Source: Massilia oculi
GTDB lineage: Bacteria; Pseudomonadota; Gammaproteobacteria; Burkholderiales; Burkholderiaceae_D
Direction: 5' to 3'
Length of the DNA: 64,000 nucleotides
NCBI RefSeq assembly: GCF_003143515.1
Contig: NZ_CP029343.1
Span: 5,208,001-5,272,000, forward strand
Within the stretch, counting starts at the first letter, position 1, and each line of letters starts with the position of its first letter. The notes under the pieces were generated by a model. The model ran no database searches and was not told the DNA's origin. It worked only from the letters and a program-made list of their open reading frames with translations. This document shows, piece by piece, positions 52,449-59,678 of the stretch. Made by a program: the position numbers and the translations under genes.

Positions 52449-54830
52449 ATGAACATCGTTTGCGTGGGCGGCGGCCCGGCCGGTCTCTACTTCGGCCTGC
52501 TCATGAAACTGCGCCAGCCGACGCGTGCGGTGACCGTGATCGAGCGCAACCGGCCAGGAGACACCTTCGGCTGGGGCGTGGTGTTCTCGGACCAGACGCT
52601 GGGCCACCTGGCCCGGGCCGACGAGCCGAGCGCGCGCGCCATCCTGCAGTCGTTCAATCACTGGGACGCGATCGACGTCCACATCAAAGGCGCCACCGTC
52701 ACCTCGCGCGGCCACGGCTTTTGCGGCATCGGGCGCAAGCGCCTGCTAGACATCCTCTCGGCGCGCTGCCGCGCGCTGGGCGTGGACCTCGTGTTCGAAA
52801 CCCGGGCCCTGGACGTGCCCGAGCTGGCGCGCCGCTACGGCGCCGACCTGGTGGTGGCGGCCGACGGCGTGAACAGCGTGGTCCGCCAGCAGTACCGCGA
52901 GGCGTTCCAGCCCGAGGTCGAGGAGCGCCTGTGCCGCTTCGTGTGGCTGGGCACGCGCAAGCGCTTCGACGCCTTCACCTTCGCCTTCGAGGAAACCGAA
53001 CACGGCTGGTTCCAGGCGCACGCCTACCAGTACGACGGCGACACCTCGACCTTCATCATCGAGACGCTGGATTCAACCTGGCGCGCGAGCGGCCTGGCCG
53101 ACATGAGCCAGGCCGATGCGCTGGCATTCTGCGAGCGCCTGTTCGCGCGCCACCTGGACGGCCAGCCGCTGATGGCGAACGCCGCCCACCTGCGCGGATC
53201 CGGCATGTGGATCCGCTTCCCGCGCCTGGCCTGCCGCCAGTGGGTGCATCCGATCGAGGTCGATGGGCGTCAGGTGCCGCTGGTGCTGATGGGCGACGCC
53301 GCCCACACCGCGCATTTCTCGATCGGCTCCGGCACCAAGCTGGCGCTGGAAGATGCGATCGGGCTCGCTGACGAACTGGACAACGAAAACGAGCTGTTCG
53401 CCGCACTCGCGCGCTACCAGGAGGCGCGCCTGGTCGAGGTGCTGAAACTGCAGAGCGCCGCGCGCAACTCGATGGAATGGTTCGAGAACGTGGCGCGCTA
53501 TACGGAGATGGAGGCCGGGCAGTTCGCCTATTCGCTGCTCACGCGCAGCCAGCGGCTGTCGCACGAAAACCTGCGCCTGCGCGACCCCGCCTATGTCGAC
53601 GGTTTCGAGCGCCGTTTCGCCAGCGCGGCGGCGCGGGACGCCGGCGTGGCGTCGCCTTCAAGGGCGGTTCCGCCGATGTTCACGCCCTACAAGGTGCGCA
53701 GCGTGCTGCTGAAGAACCGAGTGGTGGTCTCGCCGATGGCGCAATACTCGGCCGTGGATGGCGTGGTCGGCGATTTCCACCTGGCCCACCTCGGCGCGCG
53801 GGCGCTGGGCGGTGCGGCGCTGGTGATGGCCGAGATGACCTGCGTCTCGGCCGACGCCCGCATCACGCCCGGCTGCCCAGGGCTGTACACGCAAGAGCAG
53901 ATGCTGGCCTGGCGCCGCATCGTCGACTTCGTACACACGGCCAGCGATGCGAAGATCGGCATCCAGCTCGGCCATGCGGGCGCCAAGGGCTCGACCCGGC
54001 CGATGTGGGACGGCATCGACCTGCCTTTGGCAAGCGGCAACTGGCCGCTGCTGTCGGCCTCCCGCCAGCAGTACATCGAAGGGGTCTCGCAGACCGCGCG
54101 GGAGGCGACGCAGGATGACCTGGAGCGCATCAAGGACGACTTCGTGCAGGCCACCCGGTCTGCCTTTGACGCCGGCTTCGACTGGCTCGAGCTGCATTGC
54201 GCGCATGGCTACCTGCTGTCGAGTTTTATTTCTCCCCTGACCAACCAACGCCAGGATGCCTACGGCGGCAGCCTGGAAAACCGCTGCCGCTATCCGCTCG
54301 CGGTGTTCGCGGCGGTGCGTGCGGCCTGGCCGGCCCACCTGCCGATCAGCGTGCGCATCTCGAGCCACGACTGGGTCGAGGGCGGCATCACGCCGCAGGA
54401 CGCGGTGCAGATTGCGCGCCTGTTCCGCGCGGCGGGCGCCGACATGATCGACTGTTCCTCGGGCCAGGTCAGCAAGCGGGAAAGGCCCGTGTTCGGCCGC
54501 ATGTACCAGGCCCCGTTCGCGGACCGGATCCGCAACGAAGCCGGCATCCCGACCATCGCCGTCGGCGGTATTCATGAGGCCGACCATGTGAACGGCATCA
54601 TCGCCGCCGGCCGCGCCGACCTGTGCGCGGTGGCGCGCCCGCACCTGGCCAACCCGGCCTGGACGCTGATGGAAGCGGCGCGCATCGGCTACACTGGCGC
54701 CGCCTGGCCACGCCAGTATGGGGCCGGCAAGCAGCAGCTGGAACGCAACCTGGAGCGCGAACGCCAGCTGCAGGCGGCTTCCAGCGGCCTGTCGCCTCAG
54801 CAGGTGGCGGCGCGCCTGCTCGAAGGCTGA
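52449..54830 (+). CDS. Bifunctional aryl-CoA monooxygenase/reductase (salicylyl-CoA 5-hydroxylase or 2-aminobenzoyl-CoA monooxygenase type)
   Basis: A 793-residue fused flavoprotein. Residues about 1-380 are an FAD monooxygenase with GGGPAG at 7-12 and [14 protein letters not shown] near 280. Residues about 410-780 form an old-yellow-enzyme-type FMN reductase with [23 protein letters not shown] and VRISSHDW. The same fusion is known from aerobic CoA-dependent breakdown of 2-aminobenzoate and salicylate. The enoyl-CoA hydratase, acyl-CoA dehydrogenase and RidA genes next to it fit this pathway, and RidA (enamine deaminase) favours the aminobenzoyl substrate. ATG 52449 has GGGAGG upstream. Confidence 0.88.
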
Positions 54831-54853
54831 TCATCATCCATCAGGAGTCACAC

Positions 54854-55708
54854 ATGCATTATCTACCGGGCCAGCCGCACCACTTGCCGGGCAGCCGCCA
54901 CAGCCTCGCCGCCTACCAGGGCAGGCATGTCGGATTCGCTTTGGATGCCGGCGTCGCGACCATTACCCTTGACCGGCCCGAGCGCAAGAATCCGCTGACC
55001 TTCGACTCCTATGCCGAGCTGCGCGACCTGTTCCGCGCGCTGGCATATGCCGACGACGTGAAGGCGGTCGTGATCGCCGGCGCCGGCGAGAACTTCTGCT
55101 CCGGCGGCGACGTGCACGAGATCATCGGCCCACTGACGAAGCTGGACATGCCCGGCCTGCTGGCCTTCACCCGCATGACGGGCGACCTGGTCAAGGCGAT
55201 GCGCGCCTGTCCGCAGCCGGTCGTGGCGGCGGTCGACGGCGTGTGCGCCGGCGCCGGAGCGATCCTGGCGCTGGCCTCCGACATCCGCTACGGCACGGCG
55301 CGCAGCCGCACCGCTTTCCTGTTCACCCGGGTCGGCCTGGCCGGCTGCGACATGGGCGCCTGTGCGCTGCTGCCGCGCGTGGTCGGCCAGGGCCGCGCCG
55401 CCGAGCTGCTGTACACGGGGCGCTCGATGGACGGTGAGGAAGGCGAGCGCTGGGGCTTCTTCAACCGCCTGTGCGCGCCCGAGCAGCTGCTGGGCGAGGC
55501 CGCCGCTTTCGCCGCCACCCTGGCAGGCGGCCCGACCTTCGCCCACGGCATGACCAAGAAGATGCTGCAGCAGGAGTGGAATATGGGCGTGGACGAGGCG
55601 ATCGAGGCCGAGGCCCAGGCCCAGGCGATCTGCATGGCGACCAATGATTTTCACCGCGCCTACCACGCCTTCGCGGCCAAGGAACGGCCGCGCTTCGAGG
55701 GGGATTGA
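54854..55708 (+). CDS. Enoyl-CoA hydratase/isomerase family protein
   Basis: A 284-residue crotonase-fold protein. It has [16 protein letters not shown] early, the oxyanion-hole segment [13 protein letters not shown] (about residues 81-93), and [17 protein letters not shown] (about 133-149). It likely hydrates or opens the ring-derived acyl-CoA made by the monooxygenase. AGGAG precedes ATG 54854. Its stop overlaps the dehydrogenase start (TGATG). Confidence 0.9.
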
Positions 55709-56862
55709 TGGACTACCTGGACTGGCCTTTCTTTGAAGAGTGCCATGGCGCGCTGGCGCGCGAACTCGATGCCTGGGCGGCGGACAATCTGATCGACGCG
55801 CATGGCAGCGACGTCGATGCGATCTGCCGCGCGCTGGTGGCGCGCCTGGGCCGCGACGGCTGGCTGCGGCACGCGGTCGGCAGCGATGGCGGGGCGATCG
55901 ACACCCGCGCCATCTGCCTGATCCGCGAAACCCTGGCGCGCCATGCCGGCCTGGCCGACTTCGCCTTCGCGATGCAGGGGCTGGGCAGCGGGGCGATCTC
56001 GCTGTTCGGCACGCAGGCCCAGAAGCGGCGCTGGCTGCCGCCGGTGGCCAGTGGAGAAGCGATCGCCGCCTTCGCCTTGTCCGAACCGGAAGCCGGCTCC
56101 GACGTCGCCGCCATGCAGTGCGCGGCGCGGCGCGACGGCGACGACTGGGTGCTCGATGGCGAGAAGACCTGGATCTCGAATGGCGGCATCGCCGATTTCT
56201 ACCTTGTCTTCGCCCGGAGCGGGGATGGCGGCGGCGAGGGCGGACGTGGCTCGAAGGGTATCTCGGCCTTCATCGTCGACGCCGCGACCCCCGGCCTGGA
56301 GATCGCCGAGCGCATCGACGTGATCGCGCCGCATCCGCTGGCGCGCCTGCGTTTCACCGGGTGCCGGGTGCCGGCCGACTGCCTGGTGGGCGCGGAAGGC
56401 CAGGGCTTCAAGGTGGCGATGGCGACACTGGACGTATTCCGCACCTCTGTCGCCGCCGCGGCGCTGGGCTTCGCGCGGCGAGCCATGGAAGAAGCATTGG
56501 CGCGCGCCCAGGCGCGGCCCATGTTCGGCAAGACCCTGGCGGACTTCCAGCTCACCCAGGCCAGGCTGGCCCAGATGGCGTTGGAGATCGACGCCGCCGC
56601 GCTGCTGACCTACCGCGCCGCCTGGCTGCGCGACAGTGGCAAGCGGGTGACGAAAGAGGCGGCGATGGCCAAGCTGGCGGCCACCGAATCGGCGCAGCGC
56701 GTCATCGACGGCGCGGTGCAGCTGTTCGGCGGCCAGGGCGTGCAGAGCGGGCAGGTGGTGGAAAGCCTGTACCGCGAAATCCGCGCGCTGCGCATCTACG
56801 AGGGAGCGAGCGAGGTGCAGCTCCTGATCATCGCGCGCGAGCTGCTCGCGGCGAAGGTTTAA
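55708..56862 (+). CDS. Acyl-CoA dehydrogenase family protein
   Basis: A 384-residue flavoprotein with the acyl-CoA dehydrogenase motifs [16 protein letters not shown] (about residues 125-140), [14 protein letters not shown] and [14 protein letters not shown] near the C-terminus, followed by [17 protein letters not shown], where the catalytic Glu is expected. It introduces or removes a double bond in the aryl-derived acyl-CoA. Translationally coupled to the hydratase gene; ridA follows after 19 bases. Confidence 0.9.
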
Positions 56863-56881: not shown

Positions 56882-57274
56882 ATGGACATTCTTCAACCGC
56901 CGCTCTGGCCGCGACCCAGGGGCTATGCGAATGGGGTGGCCTGCCGTGGACGCCAGGTTTTTGTCAGCGGCATGATCGGCTGGGATGCCGAAGGGCGCTT
57001 CCACACGGACGACTTCGTCGGACAGGCACGGCAGGCGCTGGAAAACATCGTCGCCGTGTTGCGCGAAGCGGGCGCCGGGCCGGAGCACATCGTGCGCATG
57101 ACCTGGTATGTGGTCGACAAGCGCGAATATCTCGGCGCGGGGCGCGAGCTCGGCGCCGCCTACCGCGAGGTGCTGGGGCGCCATTATCCGGCCATGAGCG
57201 CGGTGCAGGTGGCGGGGCTCATGGAGGATCGGGCGCGGGTCGAGATCGAAGTGACCGCGGTAATACCTGACTAG
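56882..57274 (+). CDS. RidA family enamine/imine deaminase
   Basis: A 130-residue YjgF/YER057c/RidA protein, trimeric in the family, that hydrolyses reactive enamines and imines to ketones and ammonia. Landmarks are the N-terminal GYANGVACRGRQVFVSGMIGW, the central LENIVAVLREAGAGPEHIVRM and the C-terminal HYPAMSAVQVAGLMEDRARVEIE-type segment. It fits the aminobenzoyl-CoA pathway around it. Its last 167 bases are repeated, with about 94% identity, at 58461-58627 beyond a low-GC insert, so its 3' end seems to have been replaced. Confidence 0.9.
   Translation: MDILQPPLWPRPRGYANGVACRGRQVFVSGMIGWDAEGRFHTDDFVGQARQALENIVAVLREAGAGPEHIVRMTWYVVDKREYLGAGRELGAAYREVLGRHYPAMSAVQVAGLMEDRARVEIEVTAVIPD
57108..57274 (+). 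repeat. Direct repeat copy 1 (ridA 3' end)
   Basis: This copy aligns to 58461-58627 without gaps over 154 bases (57108-57261) with about 9 mismatches, mostly synonymous third-position changes. The last 13 bases differ. The two copies bracket the low-GC insert. Confidence 0.85.
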
Positions 57275-58460
57275 CATATGGCGTTGTATAGGCAACCATT
57301 TTAAGTAGTTTTGCCGCTCGTTTCAGATATATAGGTTGGCGCTTAGCCTTCACTGCTAATTTAATGGGCGCGCCAATCCTGTTTCCGCATGCTTTTTGAA
57401 TCTTGGAAGACTAAGCCGTGAAGGTGTTAATGCAGCTCTCTCGTTATAGAATAGTTGGTTCGCAGAAGTTATAGGATTCTTAAATGCAATCGATATCTAT
57501 TCCTGATTACCGCTGGCTCCGCGAAGCATGGAGTCGCAAAACATCAGTAATTGGAGGAGTTCTGGCCGTCATATCGCTTTCCCTCGCGCACTACGCCGGT
57601 TTTTTGATGCAAGTTCCCTTGCAGATTGTGGCGGTTGCTGGTATGCCGCTGGCCCAAGGTGTGACTGCGACCTTTCTCTTTTATGTGTTTTTTTGTGCAG
57701 TAGTCGCGCGAGTGTTTACGTCAATTCTGCAGCTTATTTGTCTCCCGTTCCTAGCAATCAGCGATCGGCTTGATCCCGGGTTTCGTAGAAAAATGGACTG
57801 GAAACACCAGCGCCGCTTCGTTCGAACGCACAGCCAGACTATAAAGTGGGAGGGATTTGCTTGGATTATCTTTCAAGCCGCTATGTTCCTATTCATGATG
57901 TTGGCGATATACGTGAAATTCGCTATTACGTGGGTTTCTGGGGTTGGGCTTGTTATATCTGTAGTACTTATCGTCCTATCTGGCCTTGTCCGCGCTGGGT
58001 TCTTTCTTCAGCCAAAACCCCGGATTTTTATTCGCAAGATGAAAATGCGGCGCGCGCGTTCTGCACGCGCCGCATCTGCAGCATTTGTTACCATCACTGC
58101 CGCGTTAATTGTTGTTGCGTTTTTCATGGGAAGCATGCGTGCGAGTTTGTTGCGAGATCAGGGTGCTCATGCGGTTGTGACAAAAGAGTTCACTGGTAAC
58201 GCCACTGTTATTGCAAGCTCTGAGGGCGCGCTTTTGTTGTTTCAGAAGCTGGGTGATGAACGCCGATATATCTATTCCTCACCCGAGTTTACTGCGTCGA
58301 TGGAGAGTAAAAACGTATTCACCCCAATCGGAGTCGAAAAGGATCGCTAGCAGGGCAGGGCCTAGAAGACTCTCCGTTCGGGTATATGAGCTCTGCATGG
58401 AATTACAATCAAGTGTTGGGCGCTGACCACTAAGCAGTAAAGTCCAACAGGTACCGGCAA
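57275..58460. other. Low-GC insert between ridA 3'-end copies
   Basis: A segment of about 1.2 kb, clearly richer in A and T than its neighbours. It has one long gene (57484-58350) and AT-rich flanks, and is bounded by two ridA 3' ends. No integrase, transposase, inverted terminal repeats or tRNA site is visible. The original order was probably ridA then the ASCH gene, which lies 13 bases after the second copy. Confidence 0.6.
57484..58350 (+). CDS. Unknown multi-pass membrane protein in a low-GC insert
   Basis: A 288-residue protein with about five hydrophobic helices (roughly residues 22-43, 50-85, 125-150, 152-172 and 200-222), a basic cytoplasmic loop (FRRKMDWKHQRRFVRTH) between, another (KPRIFIRKMKMRRARSARAA), and a C-terminal soluble domain of about 65 residues. 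I do not recognise a family. AGGA lies seven bases before ATG 57484, with possible TATAGA/TATAGG promoter elements upstream. Codon use is AT-rich and unlike its neighbours, which suggests recent transfer. The role could be anything from transport to defence or immunity; none can be assigned. Confidence 0.7.
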   Translation: MQSISIPDYRWLREAWSRKTSVIGGVLAVISLSLAHYAGFLMQVPLQIVAVAGMPLAQGVTATFLFYVFFCAVVARVFTSILQLICLPFLAISDRLDPGFRRKMDWKHQRRFVRTHSQTIKWEGFAWIIFQAAMFLFMMLAIYVKFAITWVSGVGLVISVVLIVLSGLVRAGFFLQPKPRIFIRKMKMRRARSARAASAAFVTITAALIVVAFFMGSMRASLLRDQGAHAVVTKEFTGNATVIASSEGALLLFQKLGDERRYIYSSPEFTASMESKNVFTPIGVEKDR

Positions 58461-58627
58461 ATGTGTTCGACAAGCGCGAGTATCTCGGCGCGGGGCGCGA
58501 GCTCGGCGCCGCCTACCGCGAGGTGCTGGGGCGTCACTATCCGGCCATGAGCGCGGTGCAGGTGGCGGCGTTGATGGAGGACCGGGCGCGGGTCGAGATC
58601 GAGGTGACCGCGGTCATCCACGAATGA
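58461..58627 (+). pseudogene. Displaced ridA 3' end (direct repeat copy 2)
   Basis: An in-frame fragment encoding the last about 54 residues of a RidA protein (DKREYLGAGRELGAAYREV... ending AVIHE-stop). It matches the 3' end of the intact ridA at about 94% identity. It has GC-rich codon use (GAG, GAC, CAC) like the genome, and the downstream ASCH gene starts 13 bases on, so this is likely the native 3' end displaced by the insert. No start codon context is present. Confidence 0.78.
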
Positions 58628-58640
58628 CGAGGCAGAAGCG

Positions 58641-59033
58641 ATGCAGAGATTGAAACGCCTGACCTTCTGGGGCGCCGACGAGAACGACGACAGTCTGCCG
58701 CGCGCTGTGATAGCGAGGCGCAAGACGGTCACCGCCGACACGGTCGAGGATTACTACAAGCCCTATGGCGAATACGGCGACGGCAGCTATGAAGCCGGTG
58801 ACCTGATCGAAGTGTACGACCTGAAGCAGCGCCTGCGCTGCCTTATCCGCGCCGTCGACGTCCAGACCATCCGTTTCGGGGACATCCCGGAAGCGGTGTG
58901 GCGGGGCGAGGGATTCGCCAGCGCCCGTGAGTTCCAGGACGTCCACGTTCGCTGCCTGCCGCAATACCGACTGCATGACGACTTCGAGTTCGTCACCCTG
59001 CATTTCGAGCTGGTCGACGTGATCGAGCGCTGA
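58641..59033 (+). CDS. ASCH-domain protein
   Basis: A 130-residue protein of the ASCH (PUA-like) fold: LTFWGADENDDSLPRAVIARRKTVTAD at the N-terminus (in parts) and EAGDLIEVYDLKQRLRCLIRAVDVQT, with the family's E-[x]-D-I pattern. ASCH proteins bind RNA or act on nucleotides or nucleosides. It was probably once linked to ridA. ATG 58641 has a weak GAGG site upstream. Convergent small gene 58993-59184 overlaps its end. Confidence 0.8.
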   Translation: MQRLKRLTFWGADENDDSLPRAVIARRKTVTADTVEDYYKPYGEYGDGSYEAGDLIEVYDLKQRLRCLIRAVDVQTIRFGDIPEAVWRGEGFASAREFQDVHVRCLPQYRLHDDFEFVTLHFELVDVIER

Positions 59034-59184
59034 CCCAGGGCTTGCTCAATGCGAGCCTGTCCTGCCTGCCCTGTTTGTTCAGCTGATAGAACAGGTAGGC
59101 CATCGTGGTGGTGGCAATCAACAACACCACGCTGGCGGCATCGACCGTCACATTGACGCGGACGTCTACTTTTACATCTTTCAT
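58993..59184 (-). CDS. Possible small single-pass membrane protein
   Basis: A 63-residue reading frame from ATG 59184 with CCGGAG upstream. It has a charged N-terminus (MKDVKVDVRVNVTVD), one helix (ASVVLLIATTTMAYLFYQL) and a basic tail. Its last 41 bases overlap the ASCH gene end convergently. No family recognised; it may be real because of the ribosome site and the clear membrane segment. Confidence 0.5.
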   Translation of the reverse strand: MKDVKVDVRVNVTVDAASVVLLIATTTMAYLFYQLNKQGRQDRLALSKPWVSARSRRPARNAG

Positions 59185-59339
59185 GGGATGCTCCGGATGC
59201 ATGGCAAGTGTTGGCGCTGGACGGAAGCCAGTGTTGTCGCGAGCATAACGTGGTGCGGTGCTGAGCTGCGCTATCGACCGAGCGCCATAGCCCCGGCCAT
59301 TCTGGTAAGTTGGCTCATTAGTGAACCGAGGAGCAACAC

Positions 59340-59678
59340 ATGAGCACTCCCATCGTCCACGTCATCCAGGATTTCGCGATCGCCGAGCAGTTGCGGTCCG
59401 ACCTGCTGGCCGCCGGCCTGTCCCAGGACAGCGTCGCCCTGTCGCCCATCGGCGACGAGGCGGGCCCGGGCCAATCCAACTTCACGGTCGGGGACTCGCC
59501 ATCGGCCAAGGGAGGTACCGACTATAACGACGTCTATCGGCCGGAAGGCGATATACACGGCGCCTGCATCCTCAGGGTGTTGGCCCAGGATGCGCGCGAG
59601 GAAGAGTTGGCGCGGGCCGTCATCGAACGCCATCGCACGGCGAACCCGCACGCGCTGAGCGAACAGCGCGCACCGTAA
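59340..59678 (+). CDS. Hypothetical 112-residue protein
   Basis: A soluble protein with an N-terminal HVIQDFAIAEQLRSDLLAAG, a Gly/Asp-rich middle and a C-terminal charged helix (AQDAREEELARAVIERHR). The pattern of a short alpha/beta ligand-free domain resembles small stress proteins that begin with a 'fluctuating identity' segment, but no family is certain. GAGGAG lies before ATG 59340. The gene stands between divergent and convergent neighbours. Confidence 0.6.
   Translation: MSTPIVHVIQDFAIAEQLRSDLLAAGLSQDSVALSPIGDEAGPGQSNFTVGDSPSAKGGTDYNDVYRPEGDIHGACILRVLAQDAREEELARAVIERHRTANPHALSEQRAP

Follow-up and report, generated by a model that had tools for sequence, protein, structure and literature searches.

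An old insertion behind ridA in Massilia oculi with a repaired target gene and an uncharacterised membrane-protein gene as cargo

The window analysed here is a stretch of 64,000 nucleotides from the genome of Massilia oculi (contig NZ_CP029343.1, positions 5,208,001 to 5,272,000), and all coordinates without a locus identifier refer to it. On the forward strand it contains an intact ridA gene (56882..57274), an ORF encoding a 130-aa protein of the Rid/YjgF family whose full-length product matches the Pfam profile Ribonuc_L-PSP at 83.8 bits. The region upstream of ridA (52449-56859) scores over the respective cut-offs both for a bifunctional salicylyl-CoA 5-hydroxylase/oxidoreductase (NF006101, 1319 bits) and for an enoyl-CoA hydratase family protein (NF006107), and since these genes precede ridA, the RidA protein of the window may serve aromatic acyl-CoA breakdown. 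The 3' end of ridA carries the proximal copy of a direct repeat (57108..57264, forward strand), the distal copy of which, a 54-aa fragment of the ridA end, is found in the same orientation at 58461..58627. A repeat search aligned 57108-57264 with 58461-58617 over 157 nt without gaps, at 94% identity and with an offset of 1,353 bases, the second-longest direct-repeat family within 55.5-60 kb measuring 29 nt. In the four-copy alignment described below, the homology of the proximal copy continues approximately to the stop codon at 57274, and the right edge of the repeat is the ridA stop codon. The 54-aa distal ORF matches the Ribonuc_L-PSP profile at positions 81-121 only, with 27.5 bits for a cut-off of 27.3. 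Over these 54 codons, 14 nucleotide differences were counted between the proximal and distal copies, 9 of them synonymous and 5 nonsynonymous. The end of the distal copy (58627) is separated by 13 bases from the start of a forward-strand ASCH-domain gene (58641..59033; Pfam ASCH, 33.4 bits), behind which lies a gene encoding a 112-aa protein (59340-59678). A 69-aa ORF with one hydrophobic stretch is present on the reverse strand at 58993-59202 and its DNA is conserved in Massilia timonae.

The two copies enclose a segment of 1186 bases (57275..58460), which occurs once in its own genome, a single contig of 5.84 Mb. Measured in 300-base windows, the GC content of this segment is 0.47-0.51, as against approximately 0.59-0.76 outside. 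Its longest ORF (57484..58350, forward strand) encodes an uncharacterised membrane protein of 288 aa, labelled MEMB in this analysis, and the remaining ORFs are shorter and overlap either MEMB or the segment edges. Neither a recombinase or integrase gene nor a transposase gene was found within the insert by examining its ORF list and by Pfam scan, no inverted pair of at least 14 nt links the two ends of 57275-58460, and a scan for promoters and terminators gave a result no better than that obtained with shuffled sequences. These observations agree with an initial annotation of the locus, which had described a duplicated ridA 3' end around about 1.2 kb of low-GC DNA, a single membrane-protein gene between the copies, a predominance of synonymous differences, a ridA gene kept intact and the lack of any visible recombinase.

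The same arrangement exists in another species. When genomes were scanned with the MEMB alignment, 37 pattern stretches were returned, 7 of which were confirmed as MEMB loci, and one of these, in M. timonae CCUG 45783 (genome G084, locus L053), is situated behind ridA. The order in M. timonae is ridA, MEMB, an insertion sequence (IS), a ridA 3' copy, an ASCH remnant and the 112-aa gene, and its MEMB protein shares 90% amino acid identity with that of the window. The distal ridA copy (L053:8484-8655) contains two 1-base indels and is decaying. The IS (L053:6948-8452), which encodes an integrase-core transposase and which we take to be IS481-like, lies beside MEMB and is flanked by two copies of ACTAAG, a motif found once in the window. 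A stretch of 215 bases is repeated in this region, and the assembly has a gap (N) there.

The DNA downstream of ridA was inspected in 38 relatives (29 loci and 9 more) with flanks of 1.5 kb in some cases and longer ones in others, 20 genomes being read with longer flanks. An acyl-CoA dehydrogenase gene is located upstream of ridA in all 38 (at a distance of 467 bases in locus L029), and 27 of the 29 loci of the first set also contain a match to enoyl-CoA hydratase. The 112-aa gene directly follows ridA, 55-124 bases off, in 13 of the 38 relatives. In the genome G020, ridA runs directly into an ASCH remnant and the insert is absent; from ridA codon 130 to ASCH codon 4 there are 24 bases in G020 and 25 bases at the distal copy of the window. 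This empty site is not a pristine junction: the ASCH remnant comprises approximately 27 codons with a broken start, and the G020 ridA reads through its usual stop. Among the relatives, ASCH was found behind ridA only in G020 and, as a shorter remnant detected by blastn, in M. timonae. In the genus, ASCH is present in 20 of 62 genomes, G020 and M. timonae, which carry remnants only, falling outside these 20, and it lies elsewhere than at ridA in every genome whose ridA place was listed for comparison. The ridA-ASCH order is thus native only to a small clade comprising the window species, M. timonae and G020, and it is the distal ridA copy that remains attached to the native downstream DNA of this clade. 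An open frame with no matching DNA in the window separates the ASCH remnant from the 112-aa gene in both G020 (L032:4486-5330) and M. timonae (L053:9027-9870); we take these frames to resemble aminoglycoside phosphotransferases.

The initial annotation had considered the 13 bases between the distal copy and ASCH to be the native spacing, which is correct for this small clade and not beyond it. It had also suggested that relatives might display an empty site, as G020 indeed does, the next conserved gene following ridA directly in the 13 relatives mentioned above. Finally, it had named two findings that would speak against an insertion, namely an arrangement fixed in all relatives or a distal copy forming part of a complete second ridA. 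The arrangement is not fixed: MEMB is present in only 2 of the 62 genus genomes, although these two carriers inherited it jointly, and a second, complete ridA was seen at this position in none of the 38 inspected relatives. At the level of the family, a ridA 3' end of the window type was matched in 207 of the 392 genomes searched, and a second match at E ≤ 1e-8, a search that shorter repeats would escape, was obtained in four of the 207. Two of these (G000 and G084) correspond to the ridA-MEMB-ridA' arrangement and the other two (G137 and G188) to frames of full-length size, so that these 392 genomes, 207 of them with a ridA end, furnished no further case of the same ridA site being used by related elements.

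Comparison of the MEMB genes of the window and M. timonae gave a dS of 0.37 and a dN/dS of 0.145, which indicates that MEMB is under purifying selection. For ridA, dS is 0.341 between the window and M. timonae and 0.356 between the window and G020. Since MEMB is about as diverged as ridA, the insertion appears to be about as old as the species split and to have been inherited by both carriers. That two of three near-equally related species have the insert and the third lacks it could also result from introgression, but the dS values argue against a recent event of this type. A flank tree of 10,501 columns, built from the 11 of 26 chunks for which all four relatives gave matches (with an identity of only 77-79% in one chunk), grouped the window with G020 with a support of 100 and placed M. 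timonae outside, the derived sites favouring this grouping numbering 80 versus 33 and 43 for the alternatives. As the window and G020 are grouped by derived sites, parsimony suggests that the insert was more likely lost in G020, the alternative being that G020 never carried it.

In order to compare the repeat copies, the four sequences (two species, two positions each) were aligned and gapped columns were skipped. Within columns 4-158 there is no site splitting proximal from distal copies, 2 sites split by species and 3 are crossed, and of the proximal/distal differences, 4 fall within the last 13 columns and another 3 to the left of the junction. This distribution suggests that the two copies probably exchanged sequence, or else were identical at formation. 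With no paralog-type sites in columns 4-158, the import of a foreign, already diverged ridA end is not demonstrable, and the lack of old copy differences gives no sign that one of the ends stems from a different lineage. The final codons of the proximal copy, GTA ATA CCT GAY TAG, are AT-rich in both species and encode the family consensus VIPD-stop; such codons would suit a ridA end borne by an element, but do not prove it.

When a circle that carries a gene end recombines once with the chromosome, the outcome is an intact gene, foreign DNA enclosed by direct copies of that gene end, and a native junction displaced to the distal side. We favour, as the reading with the better chance of being correct, an old insertion of a circle that carried MEMB together with a ridA end and recombined once within the ridA 3' end. 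Circular DNA bearing MEMB and a copy of the last ~157-170 bases of ridA would have reached an ancestor shared by M. timonae and the window species, and we infer that one reciprocal exchange within the 3' end of ridA, a Campbell-type event, inserted it there. The end that came in would have replaced the original end of the chromosomal ridA, which would thus have remained intact, and the original end would have been displaced 1.35 kb downstream with ASCH still attached to it. MEMB has since been maintained by selection, the repeat copies have probably exchanged sequence, and a crossover between them may have cleanly removed the insert in G020. The initial crossover could have been catalyzed by a site-specific integrase that has since been lost, in the manner of e14 in icd, or could have resulted from RecA-type recombination, and we give these two possibilities about equal weight; for RecA-type recombination, MEMB would already have had to adjoin a ridA end in the donor. 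We identified no recombinase, crossover core or donor circle for the ridA-MEMB locus, and nothing was seen in it that now mobilises the insert. Neither the MEMB protein nor the insert DNA matched the plasmid and phage records searched, collections in which the donor need not be represented. RidA gave 15 matches in phage records, all at ≤36.5% identity, and 27 pattern stretches in IMG/VR viral contigs, none of which was confirmed.

Insertions of this kind are known from the icd gene of E. coli, in which phage 21 integrates as well as e14. The e14 element (15.2 kb) leaves a 163-bp pseudo icd' upon insertion (PMC6379469), and the ridA locus resembles it in that the insertion hit a metabolic protein gene in its 3' part, with an end that would be supplied by the element and a distal pseudo copy left behind. 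Both have a 3'-end direct repeat with the target gene intact, and an uninterrupted site exists here in the relative G020. Unlike e14, which excises, the ridA insert is only 1.2 kb long, contains one gene and no integrase, and has no second ridA case in the family genomes searched. Elements that replace a gene end, in icd and in many tRNA genes, likewise keep their target functional and share an extended identity block with it, of up to ~250 bp for attP replacement sequences (PMC10111431); however, these islands use tyrosine integrases, none of which was seen in the ridA insert. A homologous single crossover of a circle, on the other hand, produced lacZ duplications of 109-950 bp (PMC3240628), a range that includes the 157-nt ridA duplication, and it similarly gave a partial gene-end duplication around inserted DNA without a site-specific recombinase. 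The circle was in that case a plasmid constructed in the laboratory to contain a homologous segment, whereas no donor of the ridA insert was found in the plasmid and phage records. A limited literature search, in which sources were available in part, revealed no description of the ridA 3' end as an attachment gene.

Other routes to the same arrangement have to be weighed. Foreign DNA might have been joined into a staggered break, the overhangs of which, about 160 bases apart, were filled in to yield a long target duplication without the incoming DNA having any homology. We consider this unlikely: it would explain the absence of old copy differences over columns 4-158 and would be in keeping with an insert devoid of DNA matches in plasmid or phage records, but it makes a coincidence of both the right edge at the ridA stop and the AT-rich VIPD-stop of the proximal end. 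Somewhat less likely still is a tandem duplication of ridA followed by the arrival of MEMB DNA between the copies and the loss of the 5' part of the second one. In its favour, G137 contains two ridA-like matches 0.7 kb apart, in frames of 222 and 130 aa (of full-length size as judged by frame length), but this route requires two events and a deletion, and the 38 relatives inspected with flanks of 1.5 kb or longer have only a single complete ridA at this place. An artefact of sequencing or assembly, to which we attach a negligible probability, was rejected since the same arrangement, ~10% diverged, is present in the assembly of another species, M. timonae.

We also consider it very improbable that MEMB arrived as an integron gene cassette which IntI inserted immediately downstream of ridA, at a non-classical site. 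Like cassettes, the insert is a single low-GC gene with a patchy distribution, and one MEMB relative, that of Methylobacter (L055), is located between attC-like palindromes with GTTGGGC and GCCCAAC cores and fold z-scores of -2.1 and -2.8, the downstream one lacking a clear closing GTTRRRY. Additionally, of 8 genomes tested, 3 have an IntI over the cut-off, namely those of the carriers from Methylobacter, Methylophilus and Cellvibrio (none from the family studied here), a result obtained at the genome level and not placed near MEMB. Unlike cassettes, the window copy is accompanied by a target duplication of 157 nt, it has no detected attC, and its genome has no IntI over the cut-off; we know of no cassette integration that duplicates 157 target bases. 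IntI did not exceed the TIGR02249 cut-off in G000, G084, G020, G171 or G424 and no attC-like site was found beside MEMB in the window or in M. timonae. Two attC scans that included the window detected no site in 10 of 11 and in 9 of 10 loci, the one hit, in L054, being near the background of 0.2 per locus, but the scan is insensitive, as the visible palindromes of L055 were missed too.

MEMB itself has 91 homologous proteins at E ≤ 0.001, the window's own counted, most of which are unnamed; the named sources include Massilia, Pseudoduganella, Janthinobacterium, Cellvibrio, Delftia, Methylophilus and Shewanella. In the family sample, 3 of 392 genomes carry it, and its closest metagenomic counterpart (P0001) is 89% identical and comes from a contig of 1,383 bases. 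No family name could be assigned from Pfam, NCBIfam, PHROGs or PADLOC, the best Pfam match (DUF7940, E 0.028) being below the cut-off, and MEMB is an unnamed family of patchy distribution. The best of five AlphaFold2 models, which span pLDDT values of 55.8 to 77.1, predicts six helices followed by a small C-terminal sheet of five strands (pLDDT 77.1, pTM 0.70), and a fold search with the predicted structure against PDB and BFVD gave no match at E ≤ 0.001. At other MEMB loci, repeats of at least 22 nt within ~1.2-1.6 kb on each side of the gene (L054-L059) and repeats of at least 40 nt over whole loci (L054-L059, L064 and L066, with L065 left out) included none that is the end of an adjoining gene. 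The initial annotation had asked whether MEMB is always bounded by host-gene 3' repeats, and none was found beside it at these 8 other loci. The proposal in that annotation of an element integrating at a gene 3' end stands as far as the insertion is concerned, but not for a particular integrating element, given the lack of a recombinase, of recurrence at ridA and of repeats at these loci. One repeat pair in L055 (47 nt, 89% identity, 9.4 kb apart) flanks MEMB on both sides and by eye lies between genes. In L059 (6828-10608, Gallionellales), repeats of 46-88 nt that are 72-83% alike and spaced by 1.8-1.9 kb are all situated downstream of MEMB, a pattern that would suit a cassette array or a dispersed family of repeats.

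The Duganella MEMB site was compared with relatives (74 genomes, with stretches of G418 and G390 read) and appears to be an insertion spot, G418 displaying no empty site. Opposite L056:5913-6937, the place of MEMB between the same flanks is held in G418 (L138) by another segment of 1.3 kb and 50% GC. In Pseudoduganella aquatica (L054:6920-9271), the low-GC DNA behind MEMB encodes two unnamed proteins without Pfam hits. Elsewhere, the neighbours of MEMB include HNH nucleases, a NOV_C protein (also PADLOC PDC-S36) and a TIR-domain protein, as well as the ordinary genes for thioredoxin, VF530, a copper chaperone and flavin reductase. MEMB was also found in 3 viral contigs, two of which were read and by eye contain tail- and lysis-type genes. 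A protective role for MEMB would be a guess from these neighbours, drawn from few loci and without statistics. A more far-reaching proposal, which has in our opinion little chance of being correct, is that MEMB would define a so far undescribed family of mobile cargo consisting of one gene for a host-protective membrane protein (acting for example in phage exclusion), that it would move between integron-like arrays, phage genomes and chromosomal spots of Proteobacteria, and that it would have been fixed in Massilia by a lost element that attached at the 3' end of ridA.

We conclude that the ridA locus underwent a real and old insertion with repair of the target gene, an event of a kind already known, of which it is a clear but modest example. 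It provides a two-species record of a target-preserving insertion, together with an empty-site relative and repeats that apparently have exchanged sequence, and for these reasons the ageing of such scars can be followed at this locus. A further point of note is its uncharacterised cargo, an unnamed membrane-protein family that appears to spread as a single gene and is kept by selection.
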